Positions 1,479 through 34,573 of a stretch of 64,000 bases of DNA are shown piece by piece; position 1 is the first letter of the stretch, and every line of letters begins with the position of its first letter. The notes beneath the pieces were generated by a model that was not told the DNA's origin, searched no databases, and worked only from the letters and a program-made list of their open reading frames with translations. The translations under genes and the position numbers were made by a program. This DNA is from Pseudomonadota bacterium (GTDB taxonomy: Bacteria > Pseudomonadota > Gammaproteobacteria > Xanthomonadales > SZUA-38). The stretch covers positions 1-64,000 of the forward strand of contig JBCCCR010000025.1 in the NCBI GenBank assembly GCA_039033415.1, in the 5' to 3' direction.

Positions 1479-4400
1479 TTCAGGGAAACCGCCACATAGT
1501 TGCCGTCGTCGCCTTTGACATACCAGACAGGATTACCCTGCTCGTCGCGGCCAAGTTTTGCGTCTGTTGCCGGTCGATTCTCTGGCAGGAACTGCTCCTC
1601 GGGGGGCATAACCCTGGCGTCCAGGAGATCATTAGCGACCATTTCGGCGGCAGCCGTTTCAAAAGCCGCCAGCAACTGCTCGAGCATCTCTGGCGTATGA
1701 GCCTGCGTCAAAAAGCAGGGCCGATGGCTCCAGATATGCACCCCATGTTCGCGAAGCAGACTGAAGAACACTTCAGCGAAGGGAACCTCCAGGTCGAAAT
1801 AGAATACGGAACTGAATACCTGCGCCCTGATTTCTACCCCCAGTCTTCGCATCCGCAGGTTCAGTTCTGCACAGAAGTCCGCCGTCGTCTGGTTTAGATT
1901 TTGTTGCAGTTCGCCGCCTTGTTCCTTCAGGTGGCGCAGGACGGCCCTGCTCGCCGCCATAGCAAGAGGGTGCCGAACAAAAGTCCCTGCAAAGAAGGTC
2001 ACGCCGACCTCAGGCGAGGATTCGTCACCAAAACGCCATTGACCACCGTCCATGGCGTCCATGTATTTGGCTTTGCCCGCCACAACACCGATCGGATACC
2101 CGCCACCGAGAATTTTGCCGTAGGTCGCCAGGTCGGCTCGAATACCAAAATACTCCTGCGCTCCACCCGGCGCACAGCGGAACCCGGTAACCACTTCGTC
2201 AAAGATGAGCGCAATACCGTTTTCTTCGGTTACGGCGCGAAGCTGTTTTAGGAATTCAGCCGGCTGGATATCCGGCGCGCGGCTCTGGACCGGCTCCACC
2301 ATTACCGCCGCAATCTCGCTGGCCTGAGATCTGATCACGTCGATCATATCCATATCGGCCCAGGGCAAAACCATCACGTTATCGGAAACAGAACGAGGAA
2401 TTCCAGGCGCGCCGGGGAGCGCCTGACCGGTCTTTCCGCCTCGCACGATCACCTCATCGAAGATTCCATGATAGGCCTGCTCGAAGGAAACGACACGCGT
2501 GCGGTTGGTCACGGTCCGAGCCAGCCTGATTGCCGCCAGCACCGCCTCGGATCCGGTGTTGGCGAATGTCATTCGTTCATTGCCGGTCATTTCGCACAGA
2601 AGCTGAGCGACCTCTCCAGCCAGCTCGGTTTGCGGACCAATTTCAACGCCGAGGTCTATCTGCGCTTTGACTGCTTCCGTTATGAATGCCGGCGAGTGAC
2701 CAAAGAGAATCTGACCGAAGCCATTGGTCAAATCGATGTACTCGTTACCGTCAATATCCCAAAGCTTTGCCCCACTTGAGCGACGGGTCACAATCGGATA
2801 CACCATCTCTTTCCACAGGGGACTGAACCCCGATACGGTCCGAGGATCGGCAAAGTGTGTCCGGTGCTCCTGGGCAAAGGCCTTCGACGCCGGAGTGCGG
2901 GCCACGTAACGGTCCTGGATTGCCATCAGGGCACTTTGCTGTCGTTCCGTCAGTTCACCCGCTTTACTGGAGATACGCGTGCCCGGGCCCCGGCGCCTCG
3001 CCTGATCCAGCTTTTGCTGCACCTCAGGGGGTAAGTCGATTGCCTTGCTCGCGGTGTTTGACTGCAACGCTAACTTTTTCTCGCCCACGGCAGTAGGAAG
3101 CTCGCCAGTGCCTCCCAGCGCCTGCAGCTGCAGCCTCATGATTTCCAGCTGGTTTTGGATAAGCGCATTCAGTGCCGCGCCGGGCTCACCGCTCGTTTGC
3201 AGGCCAGTCATCTGCCCCATCACCTGCATGTTCTGATCGGACTGAATAGGCGTAGCCGGCGCTGACACCGCAAGCGCCGGGTTCTTCTCGGCCAGGTATG
3301 CGGCCAGCGAACTGACCGAGTTGTACTCCTCAGATAAGTCTCGGAAGCTGATCGATACCTCAAACTCAGAGCTTACGGTCCGGCTCACCTGAGTCAGCAA
3401 GAGTGAATCCAGGCCGAGTTCCAGAAACGACAGGTCGTCCTGATCCGGCGCTACGCTGATGCCCGAATACTCTTCAAGCATCTCCCGAAGCTGCTCCCGC
3501 AATGGGCTGGTGACATTCTGCGGTGGTTCGCCAGCCTCAGGCTCTGAGATCTTCGCTTCGGAGGTTTCTTTGATCTGGTTGATTGTCATACCGGTTCCTT
3601 CCGGTTCATCGACACAATAGGTCGTCGGTTCAAACTCGTAGCCAGGCAGCGGGATTCGTCGGCGTTTCTCGTCTGCGTAAATTCTGTCGGCGTCCAAAGG
3701 CAACCCGCTGGTCCACAGTGCCCCCCAAGCACCCGCGAGGGAATCGACCGCAGCCAACTTCAACATAAGGCTAGCAGTGACAGCATGACGCTGTTCGAGG
3801 GGCAGCCCCCTTGCGAGCGATGCGAGGGTTGATCCCGGGCCGGCTTCCAGAAAGACCAGACCGCGGGCGTCATCGTTAAGCGTTGTAAGCGCGGCCAGGA
3901 AGTCTACCGGCTGCGCCAGCTGCCGCGCCCAGTAGGACGGACTGACCGCATCAGTATCGCTTAGACGCTCACCAGTTACCGTCGAAATGATCGGCACCAC
4001 CGGGGGCGCTGTTCGCACGCCGCAGAGGTATTCCTCCAGCTCATCAGAAGCCGCTTTCATCATCGTAGAATGAAAGGCATGAGAGGTATTGAGTATCTGG
4101 CATGCCGTCCCGCGCTGCTTCAAAGACGTGGCAAACCCCTCAACGTCAGGCGTCTTGCCGGCCACCACAATGCTGCGAGGTCCGTTTACGGCCGCCAGCG
4201 AGAGTTCGGGCGGCAGTTGCTCGGAAAGGTCCGAGAAACTGGATCGAACAGCCAACATCGACCCAGGTTCCTGCGCTTGCATGAGCTCCCCGCGACGGCA
4301 GACGATCTCCATTGCGACTTCGGGAGACCACATGCCGCTGACACATCCGGCGGCAAACTCCCCGATGCTGTGCCCGATCAGTGCTGCCGGCTCCAGTCCG

Positions 4401-6256
4401 TGATTGACCCAGTAGTTTCCCAGGGCCCAGGAGACAGCAAATAGCGCGGGCTGGGCGAGTTCGGTCTGACGAAGCTTATCCTGAGCCAGATGATCTTCAG
4501 GGTCGGCATGAAACAACAGCTCTGTCAGGATTGCTTCTCGTTCACCAGCTGCAGCGAGCACCCGTCTGACGTCCTCTCCCACCGATTCCAGCTGGCCGAC
4601 GAACCCTGCTGCCATGCCGGGTTGCTGGGCACCCTGTCCCGGAAACATGAACACACAATCCGTCGCGGCTCCCCCCTCGGCGGCAATCCACGCTGATCCG
4701 GGATTGCTCTTGAGAGCTCTTTCAGCGGCAACATCCGGCCAGCCTTCGGGAGAGCCGAGCAGCGCGCCACGAAAAGCGTGAGGCTCGCGTGTCTTCAGCA
4801 CCGTGTAGGCGGCGTCGGCCGTTTCTGCAGCATCCGCTTTGGTCAGGCGGCCTATCATCGCTTTTGCCAGGCGATCGAGGGCTCCCTCGGTTCGTGCGCT
4901 GAGGAGCAGCGCAGGAATGCGGGAAAGCCTGTCCGACTCCCGGTATTCGGGCCACTCCTGGAGCAGAACATGGGCGTTGGTACCACCTACGCCAAACGAA
5001 CTGACGGCACCTCTCCTGGCCATCCCGTTAGGTAAATCCCACGCCTGAGACTGACTGTTCACGGCGAATCGCGTTCCTTCGAGACCAAGGTTTGGATTCG
5101 GTTTAACGTAGTTTTGGACACCCGGGATTGTCGCGTGCCGAAGCGAGAGCGCCATTTTGATCAGGCTGGCTGTACCCGCGGCATGAATCAGGTGGCCGAT
5201 ATTTCCCTTGATCGAACCCAAAAAGCACGGCACCTCGCCGCGGCCATAAACCTCTTTCAGGGCAGCCACCTCGACCGGATCACCCAGGGGGGTTGCGGTG
5301 CCGTGAGCTTCGATATGGGTGACGGATTCCGGCTCAACATCCGCTACGCCCAGCGCGAGACGCAGCGCATCAGCCTGCCCACCGACGCTCGGTGCGGTGA
5401 AGCTGACTTTGCTGTTTCCGTCGTTGTTGATTCCCGCGCCCAGGATGACCCCATGAATCGTGTCGCCGCTGTTCTGTGCGTCTTCCAACCGCTTGAGCAA
5501 GACCACGGCGGCACCTTCGTTGAAGGTTGTTCCGCTCGCCTCGGCATCAAATGGCCTGGTTCGTCCATCCCTGGAAAGCATCCCACCTTCGTTGTAAAGG
5601 TAGCCGCGATTCGAGGGCGGATTTAGCGATACGCCTCCTGCAACCACACAGTCGCTTTCGAAGTTCAGTAGGCTGCTGACTCCCTGGCACACCCCGACGA
5701 GCCCCGTGGAGCAGGCGGTCAACAGATTGATACAGGGGCCTCGAAAATTGAAAAGATACGCCAACCGAGTCGCTGGGAAGTCATGTTCATTGGCTATCGA
5801 AGAATTCAGCTCACCGAATCGCTTAACGAGCTGCTGGCCTGAAGGAGAGCTGAGATAATCAGACTGGTAGCGATTCCAGTTCGAGCCCACAAACACACCG
5901 ACGCGATCATCAACGCGTCGTATGTTGATACCCGCGTTTTCAAAGAGATGCCAGGTCAGTTGAATCAAAACCCGATGCTGCGGATCCATGATGCGGGCTT
6001 CCATCGGGGAAATTCCAAAGAACTCTGCATCGAATTCCATTGCGCCATCGACGATGCCACGGGCAGGAACGTAGTTACCGTCAGACGTTATCGCGCGATC
6101 TATCGGATGAATCTCGGACTCTGTAAATAGCCGCACCCCGTCGACTCCCTCGAGCAAATCTTGCCAGAGTTCTTCCACGCTGCTGGCACCCGGGAATCGT
6201 CCGGCCATACCGACAATTGCCACCGCATCTTCTACGGCGAACTGAGAGTCATTCAT
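1475..6256 (-). CDS. PKS module KS-AT-ACP with integral PLP aminotransferase
   Basis: One elongation step plus beta-amination on a polyketide-peptide line (1593 aa). Ketosynthase at residues 10-430: active Cys182 in TACSTG, His318 in EAHGT, His355 in GNIGH. Acyltransferase at 533-830: GHSIGE with Ser630, and HAFH at 726-729, the usual malonyl-CoA signature. ACP at 920-990: phosphopantetheine Ser951 in GLDSL. A Gln/Leu-rich linker follows, then a class III PLP aminotransferase at ~1130-1560 with Asp1353 and Lys1381 (YGKILGGG). There is no ketoreductase, dehydratase or enoylreductase. The beta-keto group should therefore be transaminated directly, as in the iturin/mycosubtilin family. ATGA overlap with the A-T gene upstream and GTGA overlap with the NRPS downstream indicate one operon. 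Confidence 0.93.
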   Translation of the reverse strand: MNDSQFAVEDAVAIVGMAGRFPGASSVEELWQDLLEGVDGVRLFTESEIHPIDRAITSDGNYVPARGIVDGAMEFDAEFFGISPMEARIMDPQHRVLIQLTWHLFENAGINIRRVDDRVGVFVGSNWNRYQSDYLSSPSGQQLVKRFGELNSSIANEHDFPATRLAYLFNFRGPCINLLTACSTGLVGVCQGVSSLLNFESDCVVAGGVSLNPPSNRGYLYNEGGMLSRDGRTRPFDAEASGTTFNEGAAVVLLKRLEDAQNSGDTIHGVILGAGINNDGNSKVSFTAPSVGGQADALRLALGVADVEPESVTHIEAHGTATPLGDPVEVAALKEVYGRGEVPCFLGSIKGNIGHLIHAAGTASLIKMALSLRHATIPGVQNYVKPNPNLGLEGTRFAVNSQSQAWDLPNGMARRGAVSSFGVGGTNAHVLLQEWPEYRESDRLSRIPALLLSARTEGALDRLAKAMIGRLTKADAAETADAAYTVLKTREPHAFRGALLGSPEGWPDVAAERALKSNPGSAWIAAEGGAATDCVFMFPGQGAQQPGMAAGFVGQLESVGEDVRRVLAAAGEREAILTELLFHADPEDHLAQDKLRQTELAQPALFAVSWALGNYWVNHGLEPAALIGHSIGEFAAGCVSGMWSPEVAMEIVCRRGELMQAQEPGSMLAVRSSFSDLSEQLPPELSLAAVNGPRSIVVAGKTPDVEGFATSLKQRGTACQILNTSHAFHSTMMKAASDELEEYLCGVRTAPPVVPIISTVTGERLSDTDAVSPSYWARQLAQPVDFLAALTTLNDDARGLVFLEAGPGSTLASLARGLPLEQRHAVTASLMLKLAAVDSLAGAWGALWTSGLPLDADRIYADEKRRRIPLPGYEFEPTTYCVDEPEGTGMTINQIKETSEAKISEPEAGEPPQNVTSPLREQLREMLEEYSGISVAPDQDDLSFLELGLDSLLLTQVSRTVSSEFEVSISFRDLSEEYNSVSSLAAYLAEKNPALAVSAPATPIQSDQNMQVMGQMTGLQTSGEPGAALNALIQNQLEIMRLQLQALGGTGELPTAVGEKKLALQSNTASKAIDLPPEVQQKLDQARRRGPGTRISSKAGELTERQQSALMAIQDRYVARTPASKAFAQEHRTHFADPRTVSGFSPLWKEMVYPIVTRRSSGAKLWDIDGNEYIDLTNGFGQILFGHSPAFITEAVKAQIDLGVEIGPQTELAGEVAQLLCEMTGNERMTFANTGSEAVLAAIRLARTVTNRTRVVSFEQAYHGIFDEVIVRGGKTGQALPGAPGIPRSVSDNVMVLPWADMDMIDVIRSQASEIAAVMVEPVQSRAPDIQPAEFLKQLRAVTEENGIALIFDEVVTGFRCAPGGAQEYFGIRADLATYGKILGGGYPIGVVAGKAKYMDAMDGGQWRFGDESSPEVGVTFFAGTFVRHPLAMAASRAVLRHLKEQGGELQQNLNQTTADFCAELNLRMRRLGVEIRAQVFSSVFYFDLEVPFAEVFFSLLREHGVHIWSHRPCFLTQAHTPEMLEQLLAAFETAAAEMVANDLLDARVMPPEEQFLPENRPATDAKLGRDEQGNPVWYVKGDDGNYVAVSLK

Positions 6257-8115
6257 GAGGTAGTTGTCCTTCCGCGCCGCCGGCGTCGCGATGCTCGAGC
6301 TGCCGCCGCTCGCTGACCTGCATCCTCGGGTTGGGCCTGCCGCGTCTCACCAATGAACGCCGCCATCTGGCGGATCGTGGGAAACTCAAATACGCGAGTC
6401 ACCGATACCTCCCTGCCCGCGAGCTTTGTAAGTTGCTGAGCGAGTTCAAGCGTCTGAAGGGATGTGCCACCAGCGTCAAAAAAGTTTCGATCTGGGTCCC
6501 CAAGCTCGCCGGCAGGCAGAAAGCGTGCCCAGGCGCTGCCCACCAATTTCTGAGCCTCATCGCCAAACGCAGGCCCGTTGTTCGTCTCGTTAATTTCGGA
6601 TTCGTAGGGGTTTGGCAACCGATCCTCGTCCAGTTTTCCCGTCGCCCCCAGCGGAAAGCTGTTCATATGAATGAACTGAGCCGGCACGATAGGCTCGGGA
6701 AGTCGCTCCGCGAGAAAGCTCCTGAGGCCCTTTTGGGGGACTTCGGCAAGATAGTAGGCGACGAGCTGCTTTTCGTGCTGCCGATCAAGCTTGATTCGGA
6801 CACGGGCATCCGAGACACCGGGATGCGCCAGCAGGTGACTCTCCAGGTCTCCCGGCTCCACGCGATGCCCCCGAACCTTCAATTGACCGTCATTGCGGCC
6901 CTCGAAGAAAAAACAGCCGTGGGCATCTTGCCTGGCGAGATCCCCGGTGCGGTAGTAAAGCCGGCCATCCATCTCAACAAATCGTTCTCCCGTCTCTTCG
7001 GGCCGATTCCAGTAACCAGCCGCAACACCCGACCCGCTGGCAAACAGCTCGCCGATTTCACCGTCCAAGACGTCGTTCCCGTCTCGCAGCAGCCTTACGC
7101 CTGTTTTCGGCAATGCCTGCCCGATAGCCATCGGCCCGGCGGGGTCGAGGTCCCGGGGCACCACATAAGCAGTAGTAAATACGGTGTTTTCGGTCGGCCC
7201 GTAACCGTTAATGATTCTGATACCGGCGTTTTGTGCATATACGTTGAGGCAATGCTGGGCGGCGAGTGCCTCTCCGCCGACGAAGAGCCGATCTAGACCC
7301 GCAAAGCACTCGGGCGCCAGCGCGGCAAACTGATGAAACAGCGATGTCGTCAGGAATACCGTTTCTACGCCATGAGTCATAATGATTCGGCCGAGTTCAC
7401 CGGGTTGCGGGATATTTTCAGGCGGATACAGGACACAGGTTCCACCGCACGCGAGGGCGCCATACAGCTCGAACAATGAAGCATCGAAGGTCGGTGCTGA
7501 AATCTGGAGGGTTTTGGTGGAACCGTCGAAATCGCCGTAGTGTGATGGATCAAATAGCCGGCTGATTCCGGCGTGGGTTATCCGGACACCTTTCGGTCTG
7601 CCAGTGCTGCCCGAGGTAAACATCAGGCATGCGGTCGACTCGTCTGCCAAGCCGTGGTCAGGAGGAAAACCCTGGTTGTCGATAGTTGACTGTAAGGCCT
7701 CGGATAGCCTCACCAGCTTCTGATCCTGTGCAGGCAGGTCCAAGCCCTCGTCAACGAGGCAAACGGCATCCTTGCAATCATCGAGCATGACTCGAATCTT
7801 CGCCTCGGGATAGCGAGGGTCAATCGGCAGGTACGCTGCGCCGGTCGCGAGCACCCCCAACCACCCGGCAACGGCCCTAGGCGACCGGTGTGCGAGAACC
7901 GGAACGACGTTCCCGCCGGAAACCCCAAGATTTTGAAGTGCGGAACCGACGGCGCTTGCATCGCGGGCGAGTTCCGCGTACGACAGCTGCAGGCCTGTCG
8001 AGGCGTCCACCAACGCGATCCGATCCCCCTGTCGGGCGACAAGGTCGGAAAAGCGTCTCCAGAGATGGTTTGCGCCGGACTCCCCTGCAGCCACTGGCAT
8101 TTCCTTGGACTTCAT
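6253..8115 (-). CDS. NRPS loading module, adenylation-thiolation
   Basis: Activates an amino acid as AMP ester and loads it on its own carrier domain (620 aa). Adenylation domain at about residues 15-490: TSGSTGRPKGV ATP loop, GYGPTE, YRTGDLA, RGHRVEPGDLE, and the A10-type lysine in TGKLDEDRL. The T domain near the C-terminus has Ser552 in DAGGTSL. Hand reading of pocket positions gives roughly D-A-F-S-F-G-G-V-F, suggesting a hydrophobic residue (weak). There is no condensation domain, so it is the likely starter module that passes an aminoacyl group to the KS of the next gene. The C-terminal tail is arginine-rich and of unknown use. I start at the ATG at 8115; a TTG two codons upstream (8121) is the alternative. 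First gene of the NRPS/PKS operon. Confidence 0.9.
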   Translation of the reverse strand: MKSKEMPVAAGESGANHLWRRFSDLVARQGDRIALVDASTGLQLSYAELARDASAVGSALQNLGVSGGNVVPVLAHRSPRAVAGWLGVLATGAAYLPIDPRYPEAKIRVMLDDCKDAVCLVDEGLDLPAQDQKLVRLSEALQSTIDNQGFPPDHGLADESTACLMFTSGSTGRPKGVRITHAGISRLFDPSHYGDFDGSTKTLQISAPTFDASLFELYGALACGGTCVLYPPENIPQPGELGRIIMTHGVETVFLTTSLFHQFAALAPECFAGLDRLFVGGEALAAQHCLNVYAQNAGIRIINGYGPTENTVFTTAYVVPRDLDPAGPMAIGQALPKTGVRLLRDGNDVLDGEIGELFASGSGVAAGYWNRPEETGERFVEMDGRLYYRTGDLARQDAHGCFFFEGRNDGQLKVRGHRVEPGDLESHLLAHPGVSDARVRIKLDRQHEKQLVAYYLAEVPQKGLRSFLAERLPEPIVPAQFIHMNSFPLGATGKLDEDRLPNPYESEINETNNGPAFGDEAQKLVGSAWARFLPAGELGDPDRNFFDAGGTSLQTLELAQQLTKLAGREVSVTRVFEFPTIRQMAAFIGETRQAQPEDAGQRAAAARASRRRRRGRTTTS

Positions 8116-8392
8116 GGCCAATTACCCAAACTTAAATTTTAGCAACGGGCTCAGCAGCGGTCGCATAAACTTTTGTAACTTGGCCAAAAGAAAGGGACAT
8201 CGCCTCTAGCTCCAGAAACGGCGACCGCCGTTACAAAAACGCAATACCGTTCGTTTTCCCTCGGTGGCAAATGCAAAAAAGTGTCGGAAAGCAGGGTGAG
8301 CGCCGCCCATAACGACTTGTTGTGTCATTATAGCGGGCTAGGGAGACTTCTGATTCCAGGAGTCAGGCTTACCATAAGAACTCATTTGCCGC
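8116..8392. promoter_or_regulatory. Divergent intergenic region (NRPS operon / hydrolase pair)
   Basis: These 277 bp separate the minus-strand NRPS operon from the plus-strand hydrolases, so promoters for both must lie here or nearby. Visible inverted repeats: AACGGC-GACC-GCCGTT at about 8217-8232, and CTTTTG (8170-8175) with CAAAAG (8185-8190). No convincing paired -35/-10 boxes could be assigned by eye. The placement is certain; the regulatory role is inferred from the divergent layout. Confidence 0.4.
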
Positions 8393-9082
8393 ATGGACCA
8401 CGCATTCTTTGGCCAACGCCAACATTTGTTCGGCACATTCCATCCAGCAGCTGGCCAAACCCGAGATCGAGCCGTGCTGATTGTCGCGCCGCCCTTCGGA
8501 GACAATCTGCGGAGTCATTGGACCCTCAATAAAACGGCAAGCAAACTGGCAGAAGCGGGAATCGACGTACTTCGTGTCGACTTGTCGGCATGCGGGAACG
8601 CGCCTGGCGACCTGAGTGAAGTTACCTGCGAAACGTGGATCGCGGACTGCCAGGAAGCGCTCCGAGAACTAAACGACTTGTCTGGATCCACCAGAACACT
8701 CACCTTTGGGGTGCGATTTTCTGCCGCTTTGATGCTTGCCGCGCTGGACAGGGCTGGTAGCCGTTCCGAAAGCATTGCCTGGGACCCAGTCTGGGGCGGA
8801 CAACAGTATTTGGAAGAGCTTCGGGCGACCGAATTCGGGCCACCGTCGGAAGGCGTACTCGCGGGTCACGCTGTTTCTGCAGAGTTGGTATCCAGCTTCG
8901 CCGACTTCACGATTGAACCTGCTGATGCCGAGAACACGTTCGTTATTGCTACAACCAACTCTTTCCTGGGCGCGAGCGTTGCTAAGGTCGACGTCGACTG
9001 TGAATGGGCCCTAGCGGATCTGAAGATGATCTACGGTCACGACGTTATTAGCACCGTCGTAGATTGGTGTGGGCGATCATGA
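8393..9082 (+). CDS. Alpha/beta-hydrolase fold protein, exosortase-A-associated hydrolase 2 type
   Basis: A 229-residue alpha/beta-hydrolase-like protein. The N-terminal part reads like the small hydrolase 2 family that accompanies exosortase-A EPS loci: a strand of the type AVLIVAPPFGDN near residue 25, followed by an AGIDVLRVDLSACGNAPGD segment. The usual G-x-S-x-G elbow is not obvious; GVRFSAALML stands in its place, so the catalytic serine is uncertain. It overlaps the next hydrolase through ATGA. The substrate is unknown; a thioester or acyl-carrier editing role is an inference from the neighbouring acyl ligase, carrier proteins and NRPS. The start has no strong ribosome site. Identification rests on pattern recall and context. 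Confidence 0.7.
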   Translation: MDHAFFGQRQHLFGTFHPAAGQTRDRAVLIVAPPFGDNLRSHWTLNKTASKLAEAGIDVLRVDLSACGNAPGDLSEVTCETWIADCQEALRELNDLSGSTRTLTFGVRFSAALMLAALDRAGSRSESIAWDPVWGGQQYLEELRATEFGPPSEGVLAGHAVSAELVSSFADFTIEPADAENTFVIATTNSFLGASVAKVDVDCEWALADLKMIYGHDVISTVVDWCGRS

Positions 9083-9867
9083 AACCCGAAGTTCATCGGT
9101 TTGGCAAACACAGGGAATTACTAGGTTTTTCTCAAATCCCGGACAATCACAACGGCACAGCGCTGATTTTTCTCAATTCCGGGCTGCTCCCATCGATGGG
9201 CCCCTTTCGGCTTTTCCTCGAGTATGCGAATGAAATGGCCGAGAAAGGTTTTGTCACCGTGCGCTTCGATCAGTCTGGCAAAGGCGACAGCTACCGAAGA
9301 GACATGGACCGACCCGAGGCGAATTCGCTGGACTTTCAGGCCGTCCAAGAGCTGCTGAATTCTGCGAAAATCGAGCGTTTCGTATTGATCGGGTTGTGTT
9401 CGGGCGCCGACGACGCAACCCAGATCGCCGAGCAATTTCCCTGTATCGATGCTGTTGTACTGCTGGACGGGTTCGCCAAAAAGACCAGGGCATACCAATT
9501 GCGGTACTACCTACCCAGAGTTCTCCGAGTAGCCCCGCTAGTAAGAGGCCTATTGCGAAAATTCAGGCCCTCCGGATCAGGTGACGGGATGCTGACGCCC
9601 GTGTCGTTGCGCAATTGGGAGAGCGACGACCAAATGGTCACGCGGTACCAAAACCTTCTGGACCGAGGGGTTAAGATGCTAGCAATCTTCACGGGTGGCA
9701 TCGAACGATACTACAACCATGAAGGGCAGTTGGGGGCGGTCCTTGGGACGCCTGATCATCTGACCGAGATTTTTCAGCCGGCTGTTGAACATATTTATCC
9801 GACACCCGACCAACGCAGCTGGCTGAAAAGGACCGTCACAGATTGGCTAGAGAAACTCACCCTCTAA
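9079..9867 (+). CDS. Alpha/beta-hydrolase, exosortase-A-associated hydrolase 1 type
   Basis: A 262-residue hydrolase whose start ATG shares ATGA with the preceding gene. FDQSGKGDS resembles the conserved FDYRGMGDS loop of the exosortase-associated hydrolase 1 family. GLCSGADD supplies a nucleophile elbow with Ser108. A late histidine suited to a Ser-His-Asp triad is plausible in the C-terminal third (VEHIYPTPDQRSW). The pair is the known arrangement in XrtA EPS loci, where the two hydrolases sit next to an AMP-ligase and an amidotransferase, both present here at 13398 and 15141. The reaction is not known for the family. A TTG at 9064 is a less likely start. Confidence 0.75.
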   Translation: MKPEVHRFGKHRELLGFSQIPDNHNGTALIFLNSGLLPSMGPFRLFLEYANEMAEKGFVTVRFDQSGKGDSYRRDMDRPEANSLDFQAVQELLNSAKIERFVLIGLCSGADDATQIAEQFPCIDAVVLLDGFAKKTRAYQLRYYLPRVLRVAPLVRGLLRKFRPSGSGDGMLTPVSLRNWESDDQMVTRYQNLLDRGVKMLAIFTGGIERYYNHEGQLGAVLGTPDHLTEIFQPAVEHIYPTPDQRSWLKRTVTDWLEKLTL

Positions 9868-9914
9868 AGCCGGGATGATTCAATCCCTTTCGGCGGCGAA
9901 AAAAGCGGCATAGC

Positions 9915-11033
9915 TTATACGCCGTCGCTATCGCCGAGACTGACAAACCAGCCATCTGGCTGCTCAAGAGTCTGGTAGTCAGGATTGCCGACCTTGACAA
10001 AGAATCGACTGTCCTCACCCCGGCGCAAAAAGCCGAGACTGCGCAAAACGTGAGCTGAGCGTGGATCGTTGACAGTGGTTTGCACCATGTGGACTGGCGT
10101 CCGCACCATCTCTTGGATAACCACACGCAAGATTGCAGCAAAAGTGGACTGTCCCTGGTCGTCATTGCTGTAGTCCCAATCCATGATCAGCCCTCGTTTT
10201 GAAGCGTTTCCGGTACCAGCAACCTTTGCAACGACGTAGGCGTCCAACACCCCTCTCGTCTCGACACCAAAAAACCTGTAGCTGCGGCCTGATGACGGAC
10301 TATAACGCCATTCCAAATATGGACCCGATCGGACAAGGGCTTTTTTGCCCAGGCGGTTGCGTGCTGCCGGCGGCATTTTTGACACCAACTCATCAATTTG
10401 ACCGTAGCGCGACACCCTTGGGTCATCGCTTGCTGATCGCAGGCGAAACGCCTGCCAGGATCGAAACAGCCAATCAGCGAACGGGGCGAGCGGCCAAAGA
10501 GGCGCCGCAACGGAGTGTTTTTTCAACAGCAGGTGCATTGGACCAAGCGGCAACTTGTAGTCCTGGCGGATAGGTAAACCCGTAAACAGCTTTTTCAGCA
10601 TTGACAGGGAGTTGGTGTTCCCGCCGATGCATATGACGACATCATGTCGATCCATTTGCACCATATTCATCCAGGCGCCGATACCGCCACCATCAAATCG
10701 GGGTTTGACAATCGCGTCCGCGCATTTCACACCCTCGGCAATGTGTTCACCGACTCTGACGCTGCAGGGTTCGGTACCCAGCGCCGCAATGATCTCCCCT
10801 TCGTGACGAAGGCACAGCAGGGTGGACTTGTCTGCGTCTTTCGAGAAATACCGCCAGTACAGGTAATCCTCGTCACCAGGAGAAATGTCTGCTCCAAATA
10901 CCTCGGTGCGCAGAGCGGAAACTTCCGCGATCTCCTTTTTCTGGCATGGGCCAAACGCAGCATCCAGATCATCGATCGAAACCCCAAGGCTTCGCGCCAG
11001 GACACGCGTAAATGCAGGTAAGCGATTGCTCAA
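9915..11033 (-). CDS. GNAT-fold acyltransferase (last gene of the carrier-protein operon)
   Basis: A 372-residue GNAT-superfamily protein. DEDYLYWRYF followed by a core ending around residue 140 forms one GNAT-like half. Residues ~225-345 form a second, with YLEWRYSP, LIMDWDYSN and a typical final strand-helix (VHMVQTTVNDPRSAHVLRSLGF). Such double-GNAT proteins are common in polysaccharide clusters, where they acylate amino sugars. It follows a stand-alone carrier protein with a 4-nt overlap (TTGA, TTG start), so the donor may be an acyl group on that carrier rather than acetyl-CoA; this is inference. It closes the operon that begins with the amidotransferase at 17102. Confidence 0.72.
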   Translation of the reverse strand: MSNRLPAFTRVLARSLGVSIDDLDAAFGPCQKKEIAEVSALRTEVFGADISPGDEDYLYWRYFSKDADKSTLLCLRHEGEIIAALGTEPCSVRVGEHIAEGVKCADAIVKPRFDGGGIGAWMNMVQMDRHDVVICIGGNTNSLSMLKKLFTGLPIRQDYKLPLGPMHLLLKKHSVAAPLWPLAPFADWLFRSWQAFRLRSASDDPRVSRYGQIDELVSKMPPAARNRLGKKALVRSGPYLEWRYSPSSGRSYRFFGVETRGVLDAYVVAKVAGTGNASKRGLIMDWDYSNDDQGQSTFAAILRVVIQEMVRTPVHMVQTTVNDPRSAHVLRSLGFLRRGEDSRFFVKVGNPDYQTLEQPDGWFVSLGDSDGV

Positions 11034-11296
11034 GCGGAGGGTTCGGAGATCAGGTTGTTGGATTTCAGCAGGTCGATGAAATCTGCGCCCGTCTTCATGG
11101 CGCTTAAGTCTTCTTCGGTCACGGTCAATCCGAACCTTTCATCCATTTCCGCCATGATCATGAGTGCCCCCATGGAGTCCCAACCTTCGAGCGACTCCAG
11201 AGGAGTATCAGGCTGCAACGACGACGGCTCTTCCGCCAGCAAATCTGCAATTAAATCAAGTGTTTGACGAACCGATAGCTGCTCATTTTCCGTCAA
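11030..11296 (-). CDS. Stand-alone acyl carrier protein (ACP2)
   Basis: An 88-residue carrier protein that holds an acyl intermediate on a phosphopantetheine arm at Ser41 in the motif EGWDSMG, followed by the usual amphipathic helix (ALMIMAEMDERFG). The start is TTG at 11296 with GAGGG at good spacing. It lies 25 nt after the ketoacyl synthase III gene and overlaps the GNAT gene by 4 nt. It probably shuttles an acyl group from the synthase to that acyltransferase. It is distinct in sequence from the other carrier in this operon (14879-15157), implying two separate loading steps. Confidence 0.92.
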   Translation of the reverse strand: MTENEQLSVRQTLDLIADLLAEEPSSLQPDTPLESLEGWDSMGALMIMAEMDERFGLTVTEEDLSAMKTGADFIDLLKSNNLISEPSA

Positions 11297-11321
11297 GGCT
11301 TGTCCCTCGTAGCCATATTCT

Positions 11322-12365
11322 CTAACTCGGTTTTCCCGTTTCTAGTTCGCAATGGTGGAACTGGGTGTTTTTTTCAATCGTCAGACAGGCCGATCCCCAC
11401 GATAACCCGACACCATACCCCAGCATCATAATCCGCTGCCCCACGACCCCATCTTGAGCCCCTGCTGCATGATGGGTGAGCGCCAACGGCACCGAAGGCC
11501 CACCGCTGTTGCCGTACTTATCCAGCACTACGGGAATTCGATCGGCCGGTAGCCCGCACTTTTTCGCGATGTGGCGCATGATAAACCGATTGGACTGGTG
11601 GAATACGTAGGCATCCACATCGTCGACTTCCAGTGACAGCAACGCCAGGGTTGCCTCGATCAGCGCGGGCACTTCCTTCACGGTAAAGTTGAAGAGATTT
11701 CCCCCATTCATGTGCACGTAGTTGTCTCGATCATCCGCCGCCTTGCGTTCCCTGAAGCCACCGGCCGGAATGATGAGGTCATCGTAGCCGGAGCCATCAG
11801 AGAAAAGACAAAATCCCCACGGTGTGTCAGCTTCACTGCGCTCGAGGGCTGTTGCTGAGCCAGCGTCCCCAAACAGGAGAAACGTTGATCGGTCTTCCGG
11901 GTGTGTAAAGCGACTCGGCGTTTCGCCGTGCAGCACCAGCACACGTTTCGCACTACCGCTGGATATCATCATTGAACCCAACCACAGTCCGTAAGGGTAA
12001 CCAGAGCACCCGAGACCTACGTCAAAAGCCGCGCAGCCTGGCCGCAGTTTGAGGTCGCGGTGGAGCAAAGAACTGGTACTGGGTAGAAAGTAGTCTGGCG
12101 TTTGCGTGACAAAAATTAGACCGTCAATCGAGTCGGATGACCAGCCCAAGCCCCCAAGGAGCTCGTTTGCAGCCGCTAGGCATAGGTCGGACGAACAGAC
12201 GTCGTCGGTGGCAACTCGACGCTGTTCGACTCCGGCCATGGCCACCACTTTCTTGACTTCCTTGGGGTCGATACTTTGTGTGTCCTCACGGTTGTCAAAG
12301 ACACTTGCTGGAACACATGAAGAAACACCTGCCAGATTAATTCCCTGTAATACTGCTTCAGCCAA
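11322..12365 (-). CDS. 3-oxoacyl-ACP synthase III (FabH-like)
   Basis: A 347-residue thiolase-fold condensing enzyme with the full KAS III triad: Cys120 in GLGCSGYPYG, His256 in FHQSNRF, and Asn286 in DKYGNSGGP. It would condense an acyl starter with a malonyl or similar unit on an ACP, or transfer an acyl group as some KAS III relatives do. Setting: between the NAD-synthase-like gene (56-nt gap) and a carrier-protein gene (25-nt gap), so ACP2 is its likely partner. The start is TTG with GGGAGAAGG upstream. A housekeeping fatty-acid role is unlikely in this operon; an EPS- or lipid-modifying acyl group is the better inference. Confidence 0.9.
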   Translation of the reverse strand: MAEAVLQGINLAGVSSCVPASVFDNREDTQSIDPKEVKKVVAMAGVEQRRVATDDVCSSDLCLAAANELLGGLGWSSDSIDGLIFVTQTPDYFLPSTSSLLHRDLKLRPGCAAFDVGLGCSGYPYGLWLGSMMISSGSAKRVLVLHGETPSRFTHPEDRSTFLLFGDAGSATALERSEADTPWGFCLFSDGSGYDDLIIPAGGFRERKAADDRDNYVHMNGGNLFNFTVKEVPALIEATLALLSLEVDDVDAYVFHQSNRFIMRHIAKKCGLPADRIPVVLDKYGNSGGPSVPLALTHHAAGAQDGVVGQRIMMLGYGVGLSWGSACLTIEKNTQFHHCELETGKPS

Positions 12366-12421
12366 TGCCTTCTCCCTGACAAGACTTCAACGGGTCCAAT
12401 CGCCAACGCGAAGTCTTTCCG

Positions 12422-13414
12422 TTAACCAGTTTCCACATCTTCAATGAGCCTTGCACCTAGATGAAGATATCGCGTGGTGCGACGCTTGTTTCTGATATCA
12501 GCATAGACCAAGTCAGTCTGCTGCGAGGTCAAACCGATTGCCGCACCCAGTTCCGCAGCCGGAACGCCGTGATTTATGCCCCAAAGTGCGAGGTCCATCT
12601 TTTGGTAGGGCAGCGCAAAGTAAAACTCATCCTGACCCTGAGACAAGCTGTAGGTGTCGGTGGTTGGGACAGCACCACAGATATCTTGTGGCAAGCCAAG
12701 ATGTTTCGCCAGACCATACACCTGAGTCTTATAGAGATGAGCAATCGGCTTAAGGTCAGCAAGGCCATCGCCGCCTTTAACGAAAAACCCCTGATCGTAC
12801 TCAAGCCGATTAGGCGTCCCAACAACCGCGTAGTTCAAGCGGTCTGCATGAAAGTACTCGAGCGTCTTGCGAATACGCTGTTTGAAGTTTGTCGCCGCGA
12901 CGATGGTCAGGTACTGCTTCAGAGGCAGCCTAACCTCGTGTCGCTGTTGCTGCACGTCCTCAACGACGAGCACAAAGTGGTTCACCTTTCCTTCAATGCC
13001 GCCGGCAATCACAATCTTGGACTTCCAGCCCTCATTGTAGTTCGGAAAAAGTTCCTTGATGGCCTGATCGCGGCTCTCGTAGCAGCCGATAGACTCCAGC
13101 GTTGGCGCAATGTCCTTTACGGTAAATTCGATGCCGAGATGATCGGCCAGCATTCGACCCCGACGCGTACTCTCAGAGGAAGAGTCGCGTTCAGGCATCA
13201 GCAGTCCAAAGACACGCTTCGCTCCGATGGCGTGAACCGCCAGCGCGGCGCTCACGGAACTGTCAATGCCTCCCGAAATTGCCACAACCAGCCCCCGCCG
13301 ATGGAGGTCGGACCGCAACGTCTGACGAATTCGTTCGCGGCACCTTTGGAGCTCAGCGTCAAAATCCAGATCCATGGCATCGGCGAGCGTTAAGGTCTCA
13401 GAGGTCACGGGCAA
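12422..13414 (-). CDS. NAD synthase-like ATP pyrophosphatase (probable amide-forming enzyme)
   Basis: A 330-residue NadE-type N-type ATP pyrophosphatase. The PP-loop SGGIDSS is at residues 47-53, and conserved NadE segments NYAVVGTPNRLE, GFFVKGGDGLADLKPIAHLYKTQVY and LPQDICGAVPTTDTYSLSQGQDE follow. Relative to ordinary NadE it has an extra stretch of about 40 residues after the PP-loop domain (around residues 110-155, with NHFVLVVEDVQQQRHEVRL). It is translationally coupled to the acyl ligase (17-nt overlap) and begins at TTG; an ATG at 13375 is possible. NAD synthesis is not an expected task here. Adenylation and amidation of a carboxylate in the operon's product is the inferred role. Confidence 0.8.
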   Translation of the reverse strand: MPVTSETLTLADAMDLDFDAELQRCRERIRQTLRSDLHRRGLVVAISGGIDSSVSAALAVHAIGAKRVFGLLMPERDSSSESTRRGRMLADHLGIEFTVKDIAPTLESIGCYESRDQAIKELFPNYNEGWKSKIVIAGGIEGKVNHFVLVVEDVQQQRHEVRLPLKQYLTIVAATNFKQRIRKTLEYFHADRLNYAVVGTPNRLEYDQGFFVKGGDGLADLKPIAHLYKTQVYGLAKHLGLPQDICGAVPTTDTYSLSQGQDEFYFALPYQKMDLALWGINHGVPAAELGAAIGLTSQQTDLVYADIRNKRRTTRYLHLGARLIEDVETG

Positions 13415-14879
13415 GATCCTGCGTTAACTGGTGATAACGGATTTTTCCGGACTCGGTTTTCGGCAGCGCTTCCATCCAGCTAACGCTCCGTGGAACCTTG
13501 AACGGGCTGAGTTTGTCGGCACAGTGGCGCATGAGCCGTCGGGTCAGGGCCGGCTCTGACTCATCTGCGCAGGTAGACTTGACGCAGCACGCGAGGAGTC
13601 GGCTGCCAAGAAGGTCATCCGGGGTCCCCACTATCGCCGCCTCAGCGACGAACGGCAAATCCGACAACACTTCTTCAATTTCTTCTGGATGGATTCGATA
13701 GGAGCCTGACTTGAGCTGGCGCCCCAGGCGCCCAACAATATAGACGAAGCCCCCAGCGTCAATCCGCGCAAGATCTCCGGTGTGAAGCCAGCCATCACGA
13801 AGCGCGTGCGCCGTCGCGGCCGGATTGCGCCAGTAGCCCTGCATGATGTTGGGGCCTCGGGCCAGCAGCTCTCCGACGCCGTCTTCCTCGGTCGGGGACG
13901 AAATGCTCAGTTCGACTCCGGGCAAAGCGCGACCGACAGAGTCTGGGCGCTGCGAGACGAGCCTGGGGTCCAGATATGTTAACCGGGCAGCAGCTTCAGT
14001 CTGACCGTACATCAAAAACAGTTGACTTTGCGGACAGGATTTCGCGACGGCCTGGGTGAGAGCAACGGGCATCGGGCCACCCGCCTGAGTCAGATACCGA
14101 AGATGCCCCGCCGCCTCCGCGAAGGGTGTCTTCTCAAGCAGCGTCTGAAACAGCGAAGGGACGCCGGAGAGCCCGGTGATTGACGGATCAGAGAACTCCT
14201 CCGCCATGAGCGCAGGAAACGCGACCGAATGCGCAATATGAACGCTGGCGCCAGCGACAATGTGAGACTGAAGCACCGAGTTACCATAGCTGTATTGAAA
14301 CGGCAGAGCACAGTATGCGCGATCCGCTGGGCTCAATTCGAGGTATTCGGCAATCGCCCTCGCGTTAAAATATAGAGCGCGATGAGAAAGCATAACGCCC
14401 TTGGGATCAGCGGTGGTCCCCGAAGTAAACAGCATCATTGCCGTCGCTTCGGCAGCCGGAGCGGGTGTCTGCCGCGTCAATGCCGGTAAATCCCCTCCGA
14501 ACTCTCTCGGTGCGGCGACGACCGAGTGAACATTGCCGCCTGCGGACGCTGCCGAGCCATCCTCAACAACCACGAGGCGAGCGTCCGTATGCGCAACCAC
14601 GTGGCTCGTTTCGCTCGCGGTAGACCGAGGATTCAGCGGCACGGCAATAGCGCTCGCGGCCCAGATGCCGTAAAGCGAGGCGATATAGTCAACCGAGTTT
14701 GACAGGAGCAGAACAACCCGGTCCCCCGGAACGACCCCGCGCTGCACCAAACCCTGCGCGAAACTCAGTGCCCGGTCCGCGAGCTGTCGGTAGCTGATGA
14801 CATCCTCACCGTCCCTGGCAGCGGTCGCCGCAGGCCTTTGATTCGCGTGTTCCAGCAGTTGAATTACGAGCGTGCCCAT
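13398..14879 (-). CDS. AMP-forming acyl-CoA/acyl-ACP ligase
   Basis: A 493-residue ANL-superfamily ligase: ATP loop LFTSGTTADPKGVMLSHRA, YGQTEA, WLHTGDLARID, and the C-terminal catalytic lysine in TESGKIRYHQL. It activates a carboxylic acid as adenylate and loads it on CoA or on a carrier; the directly preceding gene is a free ACP (TGATG junction), a strong hint that the ACP is the acceptor. An AMP-ligase beside an asparagine-synthase-type amidotransferase and two small hydrolases is the recognised accessory set of exosortase-A EPS loci. It is also close to the NRPS adenylation gene but lacks a fused T domain. The substrate is unknown. Confidence 0.9.
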   Translation of the reverse strand: MGTLVIQLLEHANQRPAATAARDGEDVISYRQLADRALSFAQGLVQRGVVPGDRVVLLLSNSVDYIASLYGIWAASAIAVPLNPRSTASETSHVVAHTDARLVVVEDGSAASAGGNVHSVVAAPREFGGDLPALTRQTPAPAAEATAMMLFTSGTTADPKGVMLSHRALYFNARAIAEYLELSPADRAYCALPFQYSYGNSVLQSHIVAGASVHIAHSVAFPALMAEEFSDPSITGLSGVPSLFQTLLEKTPFAEAAGHLRYLTQAGGPMPVALTQAVAKSCPQSQLFLMYGQTEAAARLTYLDPRLVSQRPDSVGRALPGVELSISSPTEEDGVGELLARGPNIMQGYWRNPAATAHALRDGWLHTGDLARIDAGGFVYIVGRLGRQLKSGSYRIHPEEIEEVLSDLPFVAEAAIVGTPDDLLGSRLLACCVKSTCADESEPALTRRLMRHCADKLSPFKVPRSVSWMEALPKTESGKIRYHQLTQDLARDL

Positions 14880-15157
14880 CAGGCGTCAGAGGACTTTTGC
14901 TCCAGGTATTTCAGCAGGTTTCCGATGGAGTCCAAATTGTCCGGTGTCATCTCGTCATCCTCGACCTTGACGCCAAACTGATCCTTTAGAAATTCTGTCA
15001 GCTCCAGTATTCCCATACTGTCGAGGATGCCGCGATCAAGAAAGGAATCGTCGTCCGCAAGTTCGGCGTCATCGTCGGTAAACAGATAGTTTTCCAGAAT
15101 AAAGGTTCGCAACGCTGTGCGAGTGTCAGCGGTCGTAAGGCTATCTTGAACGGACAT
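14879..15157 (-). CDS. Stand-alone acyl carrier protein (ACP1)
   Basis: A 92-residue carrier protein with Ser47 in the motif RGILDSMGILEL. I start at the ATG at 15157, which has GGAAGAGAG upstream; a longer version from 15205 would add 16 residues that do not look like an ACP. It overlaps the 3' end of the amidotransferase gene by 17 nt and abuts the AMP-ligase. The helix-rich acidic sequence is typical. Probable acceptor for the acid activated by the ligase. Acyl carriers of this kind accompany exosortase-A-associated ligases. Confidence 0.9.
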   Translation of the reverse strand: MSVQDSLTTADTRTALRTFILENYLFTDDDAELADDDSFLDRGILDSMGILELTEFLKDQFGVKVEDDEMTPDNLDSIGNLLKYLEQKSSDA

Positions 15158-17102
15158 TGACGTCTTGCTCTCTTCCGATTTCCACAAAATTCTGGTGTGC
15201 TGCATGGGTCGACATTATGCCCATCAACGACTGAGAGTCGTTAACGGTCAGTTTTCTGCCAGATTGAGCCTTTGCGCGTAAAAAGCCAACCTTTCTGGGG
15301 TCGAACACGCCACATCGGCTGACGGCCTCGGGCCCGAGAAGCTCCTCCACGACCTCACCCAAACCCGTTTCCGCAGACACATCGATGTCAGGCGCTCGAT
15401 AGGGCTGCTTCGGTCTCGAGAGAATCTCCCCTGGCAGATGTTCGGCCATACACTTTTTGAGCAGGTATTTCTCATTCATGACCTTCATTTTCAGGTTCGG
15501 GTGGACGCGGTTGCTGAATTCAATCAGGCGATGATCCAGGAACGGGAAACGGCCCTCGACGGAATTCATCATCAGCATGCGGTCGCCCTGTGAACTCAAA
15601 AGGTAGCCTGACATCAGCATTTTTGCTTCGACGTACTGCGCCTGGTTGAACGGGTGCAAGCGGTTCAAGGCATTGTGATATTTGTCCAACAGTCGGTTTG
15701 ATGCTGGCGCTGCTGCTTGTGTCGCTGCCGCAAACTCGTCGCTGTAGAACTGTTTGATTCTCGACGTTGTAGCCCAGCGCGGCAAATGCGAGTAGCGTGG
15801 ATCGTCGACGGCGGTGAGCCCCCCACCAAAGAACCGTTTCAGGTAGTCGGCAGCGCCTGACTTGGGCAGGTCGAGATATGGGTAAAGTCGCTTGAGGATC
15901 AAAGGACGAAATGACGATTCGGGAAATTTGGCCCAAAACCGACGAGCCTTGCCCTCCTTGAAAATGTCGTACCCACCCAGGGTCTCATCGGCCCCCTCAC
16001 CCGTCAGCACAACCTTAAACCCCTGCTCCCGAACAAATTTCGACAGCAGACCCATGGCTATTGGCGCGGTGCGTAGTACCGGCATTTCGATATGCCGCAT
16101 TGATGCCATGAATGCACTTGCAATATCTCGTTGCGTCACTCGAATCTCATGGTGCGTGACTTTCAACGCACGAACGAGCCGCTGTTGATAAACCGATTCG
16201 TCGAAGGTTTGGTCTGAAAAACTGAGGGAAAAGGTACTCAGCCGCTCCCCGGCGTGGCGCCCCGCAAGCTGTACCAGGGCCGACGAGTCCAGCCCGCCGG
16301 ATAGATACGCGCCCACGGGAACATCGGATCGCAGTCTTAAGGCTGTTGCATCACTGAGCAGGGCCTCCAGTTCCTGGAGGAGCATGGGTTCATCGCGTTC
16401 AAAGTCTTCGTTGTGTTCAGGAAACGTCCAGTCCCAGTACTTTCGCACCGACAGCCCTTTCTCATCGGCGACAGCAATGTGACCCGGCTCCAACTCCACC
16501 ACACCCTCCAGCAGTGTGCGGGGGGCAATGGCGGTCCAGAAGGTAAAAACTTCGTCCAAGGCTTCGGGGCAAATCGATGGCGAGGACTCCATCGCGGGCA
16601 ACAATGCCTTCAGTTCGCTGGCAAAGATCAGCCGGTCGGATTCCTCCCGATAGTACAGTGGACAGATTCCAACCCGGTCGCGCGCCATAACAAGGCGCTT
16701 TTCCCTGTGATCCCACAGGACAATCGAAAATTGACCGTTCAGATGCTCTACGAAACTCGTGCCGTGACGAGCGTACATTTGCGCCACAACCTCTGTGTCC
16801 GATTGCGTCCTGAATTCGTAGCCTCGTTTCAGGAGATCAGCCCGCAGCTCAAGGTAGTTGAAGATTTCGCCGTTAAAAACCAATGAAACCGTGTGTTCCG
16901 CGTTGGTCATCGGCTGTGATCCCCCCGCAATATCCAGAATACTCAGGCGCCGGTGACCGAGCCCCACCTGATGATTACGATATGATCCGCCGGCGTCCGG
17001 GCCGCGATGGACCAGAGAATCCATCATTACCTCGATGAGCTTGGAGTCAGGACCCAGACGCCTGGAACGATCTGCGTAAAAAACGCCTGCAAAGCCGCAC
17101 AT
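15141..17102 (-). CDS. Asparagine synthase-type glutamine amidotransferase (XrtA-system type)
   Basis: A 653-residue two-domain enzyme. The class II glutaminase domain (1-~210) has catalytic Cys2 after Met1, HRGPDAGG and NGEIFNYLELR. The synthetase domain follows with the PP-loop SGGLDSS near residue 267 and GEGADETLGGYD. It takes ammonia from glutamine and amidates an adenylated carboxylate. This architecture is known for AsnB and for the amidotransferase that accompanies exosortase-A EPS loci; context favours the latter. First gene of the minus-strand operon ending at 9915; GAGGAA lies about 11 nt before the ATG. It may amidate a uronic acid of the EPS or a small acid carried on ACP1; the sequence does not decide. 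Confidence 0.88.
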   Translation of the reverse strand: MCGFAGVFYADRSRRLGPDSKLIEVMMDSLVHRGPDAGGSYRNHQVGLGHRRLSILDIAGGSQPMTNAEHTVSLVFNGEIFNYLELRADLLKRGYEFRTQSDTEVVAQMYARHGTSFVEHLNGQFSIVLWDHREKRLVMARDRVGICPLYYREESDRLIFASELKALLPAMESSPSICPEALDEVFTFWTAIAPRTLLEGVVELEPGHIAVADEKGLSVRKYWDWTFPEHNEDFERDEPMLLQELEALLSDATALRLRSDVPVGAYLSGGLDSSALVQLAGRHAGERLSTFSLSFSDQTFDESVYQQRLVRALKVTHHEIRVTQRDIASAFMASMRHIEMPVLRTAPIAMGLLSKFVREQGFKVVLTGEGADETLGGYDIFKEGKARRFWAKFPESSFRPLILKRLYPYLDLPKSGAADYLKRFFGGGLTAVDDPRYSHLPRWATTSRIKQFYSDEFAAATQAAAPASNRLLDKYHNALNRLHPFNQAQYVEAKMLMSGYLLSSQGDRMLMMNSVEGRFPFLDHRLIEFSNRVHPNLKMKVMNEKYLLKKCMAEHLPGEILSRPKQPYRAPDIDVSAETGLGEVVEELLGPEAVSRCGVFDPRKVGFLRAKAQSGRKLTVNDSQSLMGIMSTHAAHQNFVEIGREQDVNVRSR

Positions 17103-33556: not shown

Positions 33557-34573
33557 CTACTGCATCGAAGCGGCTTTTTCGATCAATCGATCAATCGATG
33601 GGCTATTGCAGATCTCCTTCAGGCTGTTTAACAACGGCGTCGCGGACCAATTTGGGGTATAAATTTCCGCTTTTTCTACCAACGCACGCAAGTCACCTTC
33701 ACCAGCGTTATGGAGTGTGTGGATTCTAAAACGTTCCATGCCTACTCCCAAGCAAAAGTCGTCAAACTTAATGTTGTCGCCACCAATATTCTGAGACTCA
33801 AGTTTGAAAACAGCGACAGGTACACCGTAAGCAACGGAGAAAATAAAGGCATGGAGAGAGCTTGTGAGTACACAACGAGCCGAGGCGATATGGTCGATTA
33901 CGCTTTCGATTTTTTGTTTGCTGCGAACATGCAGATCTATGAATTCAAAATCGGGGATTCTGTCGAGCAGATTAGTATGTTTAAAATGCGGGACAACCAG
34001 ACCAATGGAATTAGTAACATGCAACGTCGGTCGGTAGATTAGTGGGAAGAGCATGGCAGGATCGCCAAACACTTTTGGGCACGGAATTCCGTGCTTTTTC
34101 AGGTTGTTTCTGGTCAGGGGGCCTCGTACAGCCAGGCATTTAGGAGATGCTACGATCGCCTCATTGTCTCTGATAATTCCGCTGCCCCATACATAAGAAT
34201 GGTCTTGGGCCAAGCGCACCGTACTGCCGATTCCCAACAGATGTTTCTTCCGGTCGAACAAACAGTCTGCGCCGGCAATGCGGGCCAGGAGATACGGCAT
34301 TAGCTCATCACCAAAATTTCCTAAGTGTCTTGACCACCAAACCTTCAACCGTTCCGGGTTTTTGATTCCCGACTCCCGCAACATGTCGAGGATCTCGAGA
34401 CGCTGTACTTTTTGATTAAGCACGTGGTGGCAGGGAACCCAGGTAGGTACACTGAAATGCTTCAGCCTTGTCCTAGACAGCAGTGAATGGGGCATAGCCC
34501 AATCGATGAGTATGTCTAACGCGGTTTCAATCGCCGATTTGACAATTCCCTTTAGCCAGAGGAAGCGCTGCAT
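33557..34573 (-). CDS. Polysaccharide pyruvyl transferase (ExoV/CsaB family)
   Basis: 338 residues with family hallmarks: WWSRHLGNFGDELMPYLLARI, LLGIGSTVRLA, VWGSGII, LAVRGPLTR, KVFGDPAMLFP and LTSSLHAFIFSVAYGVPVA. It puts a ketal pyruvate from phosphoenolpyruvate on a sugar of the repeat unit, adding negative charge to the polymer. It stands alone on the minus strand. This part of the window looks lower in G+C than the ends. Confidence 0.9.
   Translation of the reverse strand: MQRFLWLKGIVKSAIETALDILIDWAMPHSLLSRTRLKHFSVPTWVPCHHVLNQKVQRLEILDMLRESGIKNPERLKVWWSRHLGNFGDELMPYLLARIAGADCLFDRKKHLLGIGSTVRLAQDHSYVWGSGIIRDNEAIVASPKCLAVRGPLTRNNLKKHGIPCPKVFGDPAMLFPLIYRPTLHVTNSIGLVVPHFKHTNLLDRIPDFEFIDLHVRSKQKIESVIDHIASARCVLTSSLHAFIFSVAYGVPVAVFKLESQNIGGDNIKFDDFCLGVGMERFRIHTLHNAGEGDLRALVEKAEIYTPNWSATPLLNSLKEICNSPSIDRLIEKAASMQ

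Follow-up and report, generated by a model that had tools for sequence, protein, structure and literature searches.

An operon pairing a NadE-like amide synthetase with an AsnB-type amidotransferase and carrier proteins belongs to a recurrent gene module

Gene content of the operon

The DNA examined here is a 64,000-nucleotide stretch of a gammaproteobacterial draft genome of the Xanthomonadales (assembly GCA_039033415.1, contig JBCCCR010000025.1, positions 1 to 64,000), which we refer to as the window. Its minus strand carries seven genes, from 17102 to 9915, that combine an AsnB-type amidotransferase and a paralogue of the NAD synthetase NadE with an AMP-forming acid ligase, a ketoacyl synthase, two acyl carrier proteins (ACPs) and a putative N-acyltransferase. 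An earlier note on this DNA had read these genes as a single operon, and their layout bears this out: all seven open reading frames (ORFs) are present and are separated by overlaps or short gaps. The AsnB and ACP1 frames overlap, ACP1 and the ligase share 1 base, and the ligase and NadE-like frames share 17 bases; gaps of 56 and 25 bases then separate NadE from KAS III and KAS III from ACP2, and ACP2 and the last gene overlap by 4 bases. The gene names in that note also agree with our family scans, except that support for the GNAT label comes from the predicted fold, as the 372-aa protein has no Pfam or NCBIfam match. The features are as follows.

15141..17102, minus strand: AsnB-type glutamine amidotransferase, 653 aa (TIGR01536, 479.6 bits against a cut-off of 267)
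14879..15205, minus strand: ACP1 (PF00550, 27.3 bits; phosphopantetheine serine in ILDSMGIL)
13398..14879, minus strand: AMP-forming acid ligase, 493 aa, subtype I (AMP-binding and C-terminal domains; motifs LPFQYSYGNSVLQ ... MYGQTEAAARL)
12422..13414, minus strand: NadE-like ammonia-dependent PP-loop amide synthetase, 330 aa, PRK00876 type (NF002048, 480.9 bits against a cut-off of 313)
11322..12365, minus strand: KAS III (FabH-like), 347 aa, an optional companion (KAS III N- and C-terminal domains)
11030..11296, minus strand: ACP2, 88 aa, an optional companion of KAS III (PP-binding match; serine in GWDSMGAL)
9915..11033, minus strand: protein with a tandem-GNAT N-acyltransferase fold, 372 aa, a frequent fifth module member (from fold and co-occurrence)
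9906..9924, minus strand: terminator-like stem-loop with a T-run at the operon end (suggestive by position; such sites are no more numerous in the region than in shuffled sequence)

The translations retain the expected catalytic residues. The AsnB protein has both its glutaminase Cys2 (MCGF) and its synthetase PP-loop (SGGLDSS) intact, and the Cys-His-Asn triad of KAS III is complete (GLGCSGYPYG, FHQSNRF, YGNSGGPS). For ACP1, the likely start is an internal methionine near 15157.

Conservation of the module across genomes

To follow these genes beyond the window, close homologues of the NadE-like protein were aligned, the resulting profile was run on genome contigs, and the best 80 of at least 556 relatives were taken with their flanks. 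Within 10 kb of the NadE-like gene, the 68 loci with adequate flanks contain the ligase and ACP1 in every case (68/68 each) and AsnB in nearly all (64/68). AsnB, ACP and ligase are thus found together at 64 of 68 loci, compared with none (0/13) of the control regions, which surround housekeeping NadE in related genomes (p = 6e-12). Because the best-80 sample is biased toward close relatives, we also examined 398 genomes drawn separately from the phylum. The NadE type exceeds its cut-off in 15 of these, the window's own genome among them, and the other 14 all have the ligase and ACP nearby (14/14), with AsnB in 13/14; in genome G320, AsnB is absent from the 20-kb stretch. We conclude that AsnB, ACP, AMP-ligase and the NadE-like gene form the core of a recurrent module. 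The proposal in the earlier note that the genes act as a set therefore holds for these four, and the outcome that it named as counting against the idea, homologues scattered independently through other genomes, did not occur.

Gene order is permuted among loci (AsnB-ACP-Lig-NadE, NadE-AsnB-Lig-ACP, ACP-Lig-AsnB-NadE-GNAT and divergent forms), and the persistence of the genes together despite this shuffling argues for selection on their linkage. The module is spread over Gamma-, Beta- and Alphaproteobacteria and a few Delta/Myxococcota metagenome-assembled genomes (MAGs). Plasmid records hold 116 further copies, mostly from Sinorhizobium, and the complete AsnB-ACP-ligase-NadE order is found in Sinorhizobium medicae, S. 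meliloti, Mesorhizobium, Shinella and Rhizobium. The architecture nearest to that of the window is in a gammaproteobacterial MAG (locus L062) with the identical seven-gene order, whose NadE-like protein is sister to that of the window on the NadE tree with modest support (86). Our search of the open-access literature, with subscription journals mostly outside its reach, returned no paper describing a module of NadE, AsnB and ACP. In three alphaproteobacterial genomes (L125, L130 and L132), a protein of 911-930 aa with AMP-binding and thioesterase domains adjoins the NadE-like gene.

KAS III and ACP2 are found beside the core in only about 8-9 of the 68 loci (about 1 in 8), in several arrangements. 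On the NadE tree, their distribution requires at least five changes, of which the starred branches force at least two, so that gain or loss must have been repeated. We therefore treat the pair as an optional extension outside the core. Where the earlier note had expected NadE-like, KAS III, two ACPs and AsnB to co-occur, the part concerning AsnB and a carrier protein stands, whereas KAS III and ACP2 prove to be an occasional add-on.

A NadE paralogue with a distinct lid

Genes of the NadE-like subfamily are annotated as "NAD(+) synthase" in public records, and the window protein has the features of the family: it scores 151.3 bits against PF02540 (cut-off 21), exceeds the curated subfamily cut-off given above, has the SGGxDS PP-loop, and adopts the NadE fold by AlphaFold and Foldseek (TM-score of 0.84 normalised to 2e18). 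Besides the PP-loop, the catalytic positions that it shares with housekeeping NadE include N176, R180, R182, T200, E205, D216, K229, D274, K310 and R311. The lid that covers the substrate, PTTDTYSLxQxQ[DE]EFYF, is nearly invariant across 33 sequences of the NadE-like type, whereas housekeeping NadE of related genomes has P-S-A-E-L there, and the NadE-like proteins have an insertion near residues 110-165; the housekeeping NadE compared is of the long, probably glutamine-dependent type, and some of these differences may reflect that class. The neighbours also differ, with ACP, ligase and AsnB in place of housekeeping genes. A NadE of the PRK00876-type subfamily is also found above the cut-off in the archaeal control genome, Methanosarcina acetivorans.

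The genome encodes a second, full-length NadE as a 550-aa frame on contig C48. A role for the NadE-like protein as the sole NAD synthase is thereby rejected, and with it the situation that the earlier note saw as fatal to its proposal, an operon enzyme that rescues NAD synthesis in a genome with no other nadE. Given the separate full-length enzyme, the paralogue is unlikely to be the principal NAD synthase, although some activity on nicotinic acid adenine dinucleotide is possible.

Two ligase subtypes and an orphan carrier protein

The module ligases fall into two subtypes that occur with the same partners and differ in pocket-region motifs. Subtype I, that of the window, has the motifs FYYSYGxSVLHTHL and YGQTEAxARL, while subtype II, found in Sinorhizobium and at L062 and L082, has LAFDYGLYQLLM and YGLTECKR. 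The two alternate within the module (L062, L082 and L137 versus the window, L026 and L030). An attempt to read the acid from the pocket residues failed: where adenylation domains of nonribosomal peptide synthetases (NRPSs) have the Asp that binds the amino acid, the window ligase has Ser and the other ligases have Ser, Ala, Asp or Gly, and with such variation no acid can be named.

The ligase and its ACP have a probable precedent in S. meliloti. According to PMC7232532, which cites Ramos-Vega et al. 2009, SMb20650, a ligase encoded on the megaplasmid pSymB, and the ACP SMb20651 are transcribed together, and co-expression of the two in Escherichia coli yields acylated SMb20651; the same source states that SMb20650 could not replace fadD. 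SMb20651 is described as carrying a DST motif (PMC12391972), and the passages on this pair in PMC7232532 and PMC5686131 call their function unknown. On pSymB, we find the same AsnB-ACP-ligase-NadE operon, and since its ACP has a DST motif and adjoins the ligase, these genes are very probably SMb20651 and SMb20650. The portions of the S. meliloti papers drawn on here concern the ligase and ACP only, and AsnB and NadE are not described there as partners of the pair. The S. meliloti locus also differs from the window in its ligase, which is of subtype II, and in having no adjoining KAS III and ACP2.

A tandem-GNAT protein as frequent fifth member

Because the 372-aa protein also has no significant sequence match in the PDB, its structure was used instead. 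The AlphaFold model (mean pLDDT 83) has a tandem-GNAT fold that, along nearly the entire protein, resembles N-myristoyltransferases (VIA Z of 20-21, with about 320 residues aligned) as well as the bacterial tandem GNATs 7q3a and 2ozg. A profile was then seeded with the window protein and iterated; among the 398 genomes, its narrow form (A4) matches only the window and its wider form (A7) matches 28. Of 104 module loci, 53 contain divergent relatives; the control regions around housekeeping NadE contain none. In many loci, the GNAT gene lies within 400 bases of NadE, and in many it starts no more than 10 bases after it. In Azospirillum thermophilum, ACP, ligase, AsnB, NadE and GNAT are contiguous, with NadE and GNAT overlapping.

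Among the 398 genomes, GNAT is present in 10/15 of those with the NadE-like gene and in 18/383 of those without. The enrichment persists once the source genomes of the profile are removed (5/10 versus 18/383, p = 9e-5), with GNAT on a different contig from the NadE-like gene in 3 of those 5 genomes (G180, G227 and G329). A divergent tandem-GNAT acyltransferase is thus a frequent fifth member of the module, and its linkage suggests that the module ACP may be its acyl donor.

Exopolysaccharide context

The earlier note had compared the operon with the usual exosortase-A accessory genes and proposed that it serves to decorate exopolysaccharide (EPS). The window does contain an EPS locus with XrtA-type export genes above cut-off (TIGR03007, TIGR03013 and TIGR03027), and the ligase and amidotransferase of the operon are distantly homologous to those of the XrtA set. 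Both fall far short of the corresponding models, with AsnB scoring 400.9 bits against TIGR03108 (cut-off 816.9) and the ligase 318.6 bits against TIGR03098 (cut-off 592.35). The third member of that set, the TIGR03099 decarboxylase, is not among the NCBIfam matches listed for the scanned proteins, which cover part of the window's ORFs, in agreement with the earlier remark that no pyridoxal phosphate-dependent decarboxylase is seen. Exosortase itself (TIGR03109, TIGR02602) has no match in the 98.67%-complete draft assembly. We therefore reject membership in the exosortase-A accessory set.

The tie to EPS is common without being obligatory: in Sinorhizobium, the four-gene core sits between minCDE and a sugar ABC transporter, and no polysaccharide genes adjoin it directly. 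The original observation was thus sound and more general than it first appeared, and its interpretation was right in outline, with the exosortase frame wrong and the EPS tie too narrow.

Proposed function and alternative readings

NadE usually counts as a housekeeping enzyme. That genes of this subfamily are so tightly linked to those for an acid ligase, a carrier protein and an AsnB-like enzyme suggests that they have a biosynthetic role of their own. On balance, we consider it probable, by a modest measure, that the operon exemplifies a recurrent carrier-protein module for making a nitrogen-bearing acyl group and transferring it to an amine. The ligase would adenylate a carboxylic acid and load it onto ACP1, and the AsnB-like enzyme would amidate a free carboxylate of this acid, either once it is on the carrier or beforehand. 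The NadE-like paralogue, no longer devoted mainly to NAD synthesis, would adenylate a second carboxylate, or the amide made by AsnB, and add ammonia. The tandem GNAT would then take the acyl group off the carrier and attach it to an amine, which in many cases would belong to a sugar of a surface polysaccharide or to a precursor of that sugar. The operon in the window also has KAS III and ACP2 inserted before GNAT, and these would add a single malonyl unit to the acyl chain. The sequence of activation, loading, amidation and transfer to an amine, already suggested in the earlier note, fits the enzyme classes. We infer the acid and the acceptor, the sequence of reactions and what the NadE-like enzyme does, while the ligase-ACP step alone has an experiment behind it, in the apparent S. 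meliloti homologue. As S. meliloti has the four-gene core, a gene set that includes a long-orphan ACP is directly testable there.

There are partial precedents for the amidation. In glutarimide loading modules, an amidotransferase and an ACP are proposed to amidate a free carboxylate (PMC4853412), and an AsnB homologue is reported as a dedicated amide synthetase for sorbamide (PMC13284220). The window resembles the glutarimide (cycloheximide-type) loading module, which consists of an ACP, a malonyl transacylase and an AsnB-type amidotransferase, in pairing a stand-alone ACP with such an amidotransferase. It differs in that the AMP-ligase takes the place of the malonyl-CoA:ACP transacylase, a NadE-like enzyme is added, and the core has no modular polyketide synthase (PKS); the PKS at 1475-6256 is near but outside it.

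Several observations weigh against this reading. Glycan genes are detectable within 10 kb in only 40 of the 68 module loci, so that the acceptor may often, and not always, be a glycan. The split of the ligases into two subtypes may mean that the acid varies. The GNAT families are only 13-25% identical to that of the window, which points to a recruited superfamily instead of one orthologue, and in so broad a superfamily the co-occurrence may partly reflect a shared EPS context. The GNAT profile has no match in 26 of 63 well-flanked module loci, where other acyltransferase candidates were examined in part; a CelD-like second acyltransferase family sought in GNAT-less loci is carried by a few only. 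The assignment of SMb20650 and SMb20651 depends on replicon, gene adjacency and the DST motif, the S. meliloti record being unannotated. Finally, the NadE-like reaction is drawn from family chemistry, and residual NAD synthetase activity is possible.

A wider proposal, which we hold more tentatively, is that the module is an unrecognised, laterally spread system in which a NAD-synthetase paralogue and an AsnB-type enzyme put two nitrogens on a carrier-bound acid. The product would be an acyl group in diamide or amidine form, and, with ligases and acyltransferases that can be exchanged, it would differ from one surface to another.

Among the alternatives, the one that survives best, though we regard it as unlikely, has AsnB and the NadE-like enzyme acting in series on one carbon, from acid to amide to amidine, to give an amidino-acyl group for a sugar. 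The conserved linkage of two nitrogen-adding, adenylating enzymes in 64/68 loci is consistent with such a route. The PP-loop relatives GuaA and QueC activate amide-like oxygens, and amidino groups are found on bacterial nonulosonic acids. NadE homologues, however, are known to act on carboxylates. It is less likely again that AsnB amidates a uronic acid of the polysaccharide, as in WbpS-like uronamide synthesis, independently of the carrier chemistry of its neighbours. TviB- and TviC-type UDP-sugar dehydrogenase and epimerase genes are present in the window, and PMC3684757 describes AsnB genes of the WbpS-like kind at EPS loci, but Sinorhizobium, Mesorhizobium and Rhizobium keep AsnB beside ACP, ligase and NadE at sites that uronate and EPS genes do not adjoin. 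The least probable is a NadE-like enzyme serving as a second NAD synthase that supplies NAD to a pathway formed by AsnB, ACP, ligase and GNAT, for although the protein passes the NAD(+) synthase subfamily cut-off with catalytic residues and fold kept, a full-length NadE is encoded elsewhere, the control regions around housekeeping NadE lack such neighbours, the lid has its own motif with almost no variation, and no other module gene points to a special demand for NAD.

Neighbouring genes

Convergent with the operon, two alpha/beta hydrolases at 8393-9867 on the plus strand weakly resemble XrtA hydrolases 1 and 2 (under cut-off). The EPS region also has long ORFs with no NCBIfam match, at 25783-27534, 31797-33440, 33557-34573, 34751-36502 and 40484-42193. 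The minus strand at 1475-8121 encodes an NRPS-like protein with adenylation and peptidyl carrier domains (622 aa) and, after it, a 1593-aa protein with the architecture KS-AT-ACP-class III aminotransferase. This pair could be a small hybrid assembly line adjoining the operon, with a beta-amino acyl group as its product.

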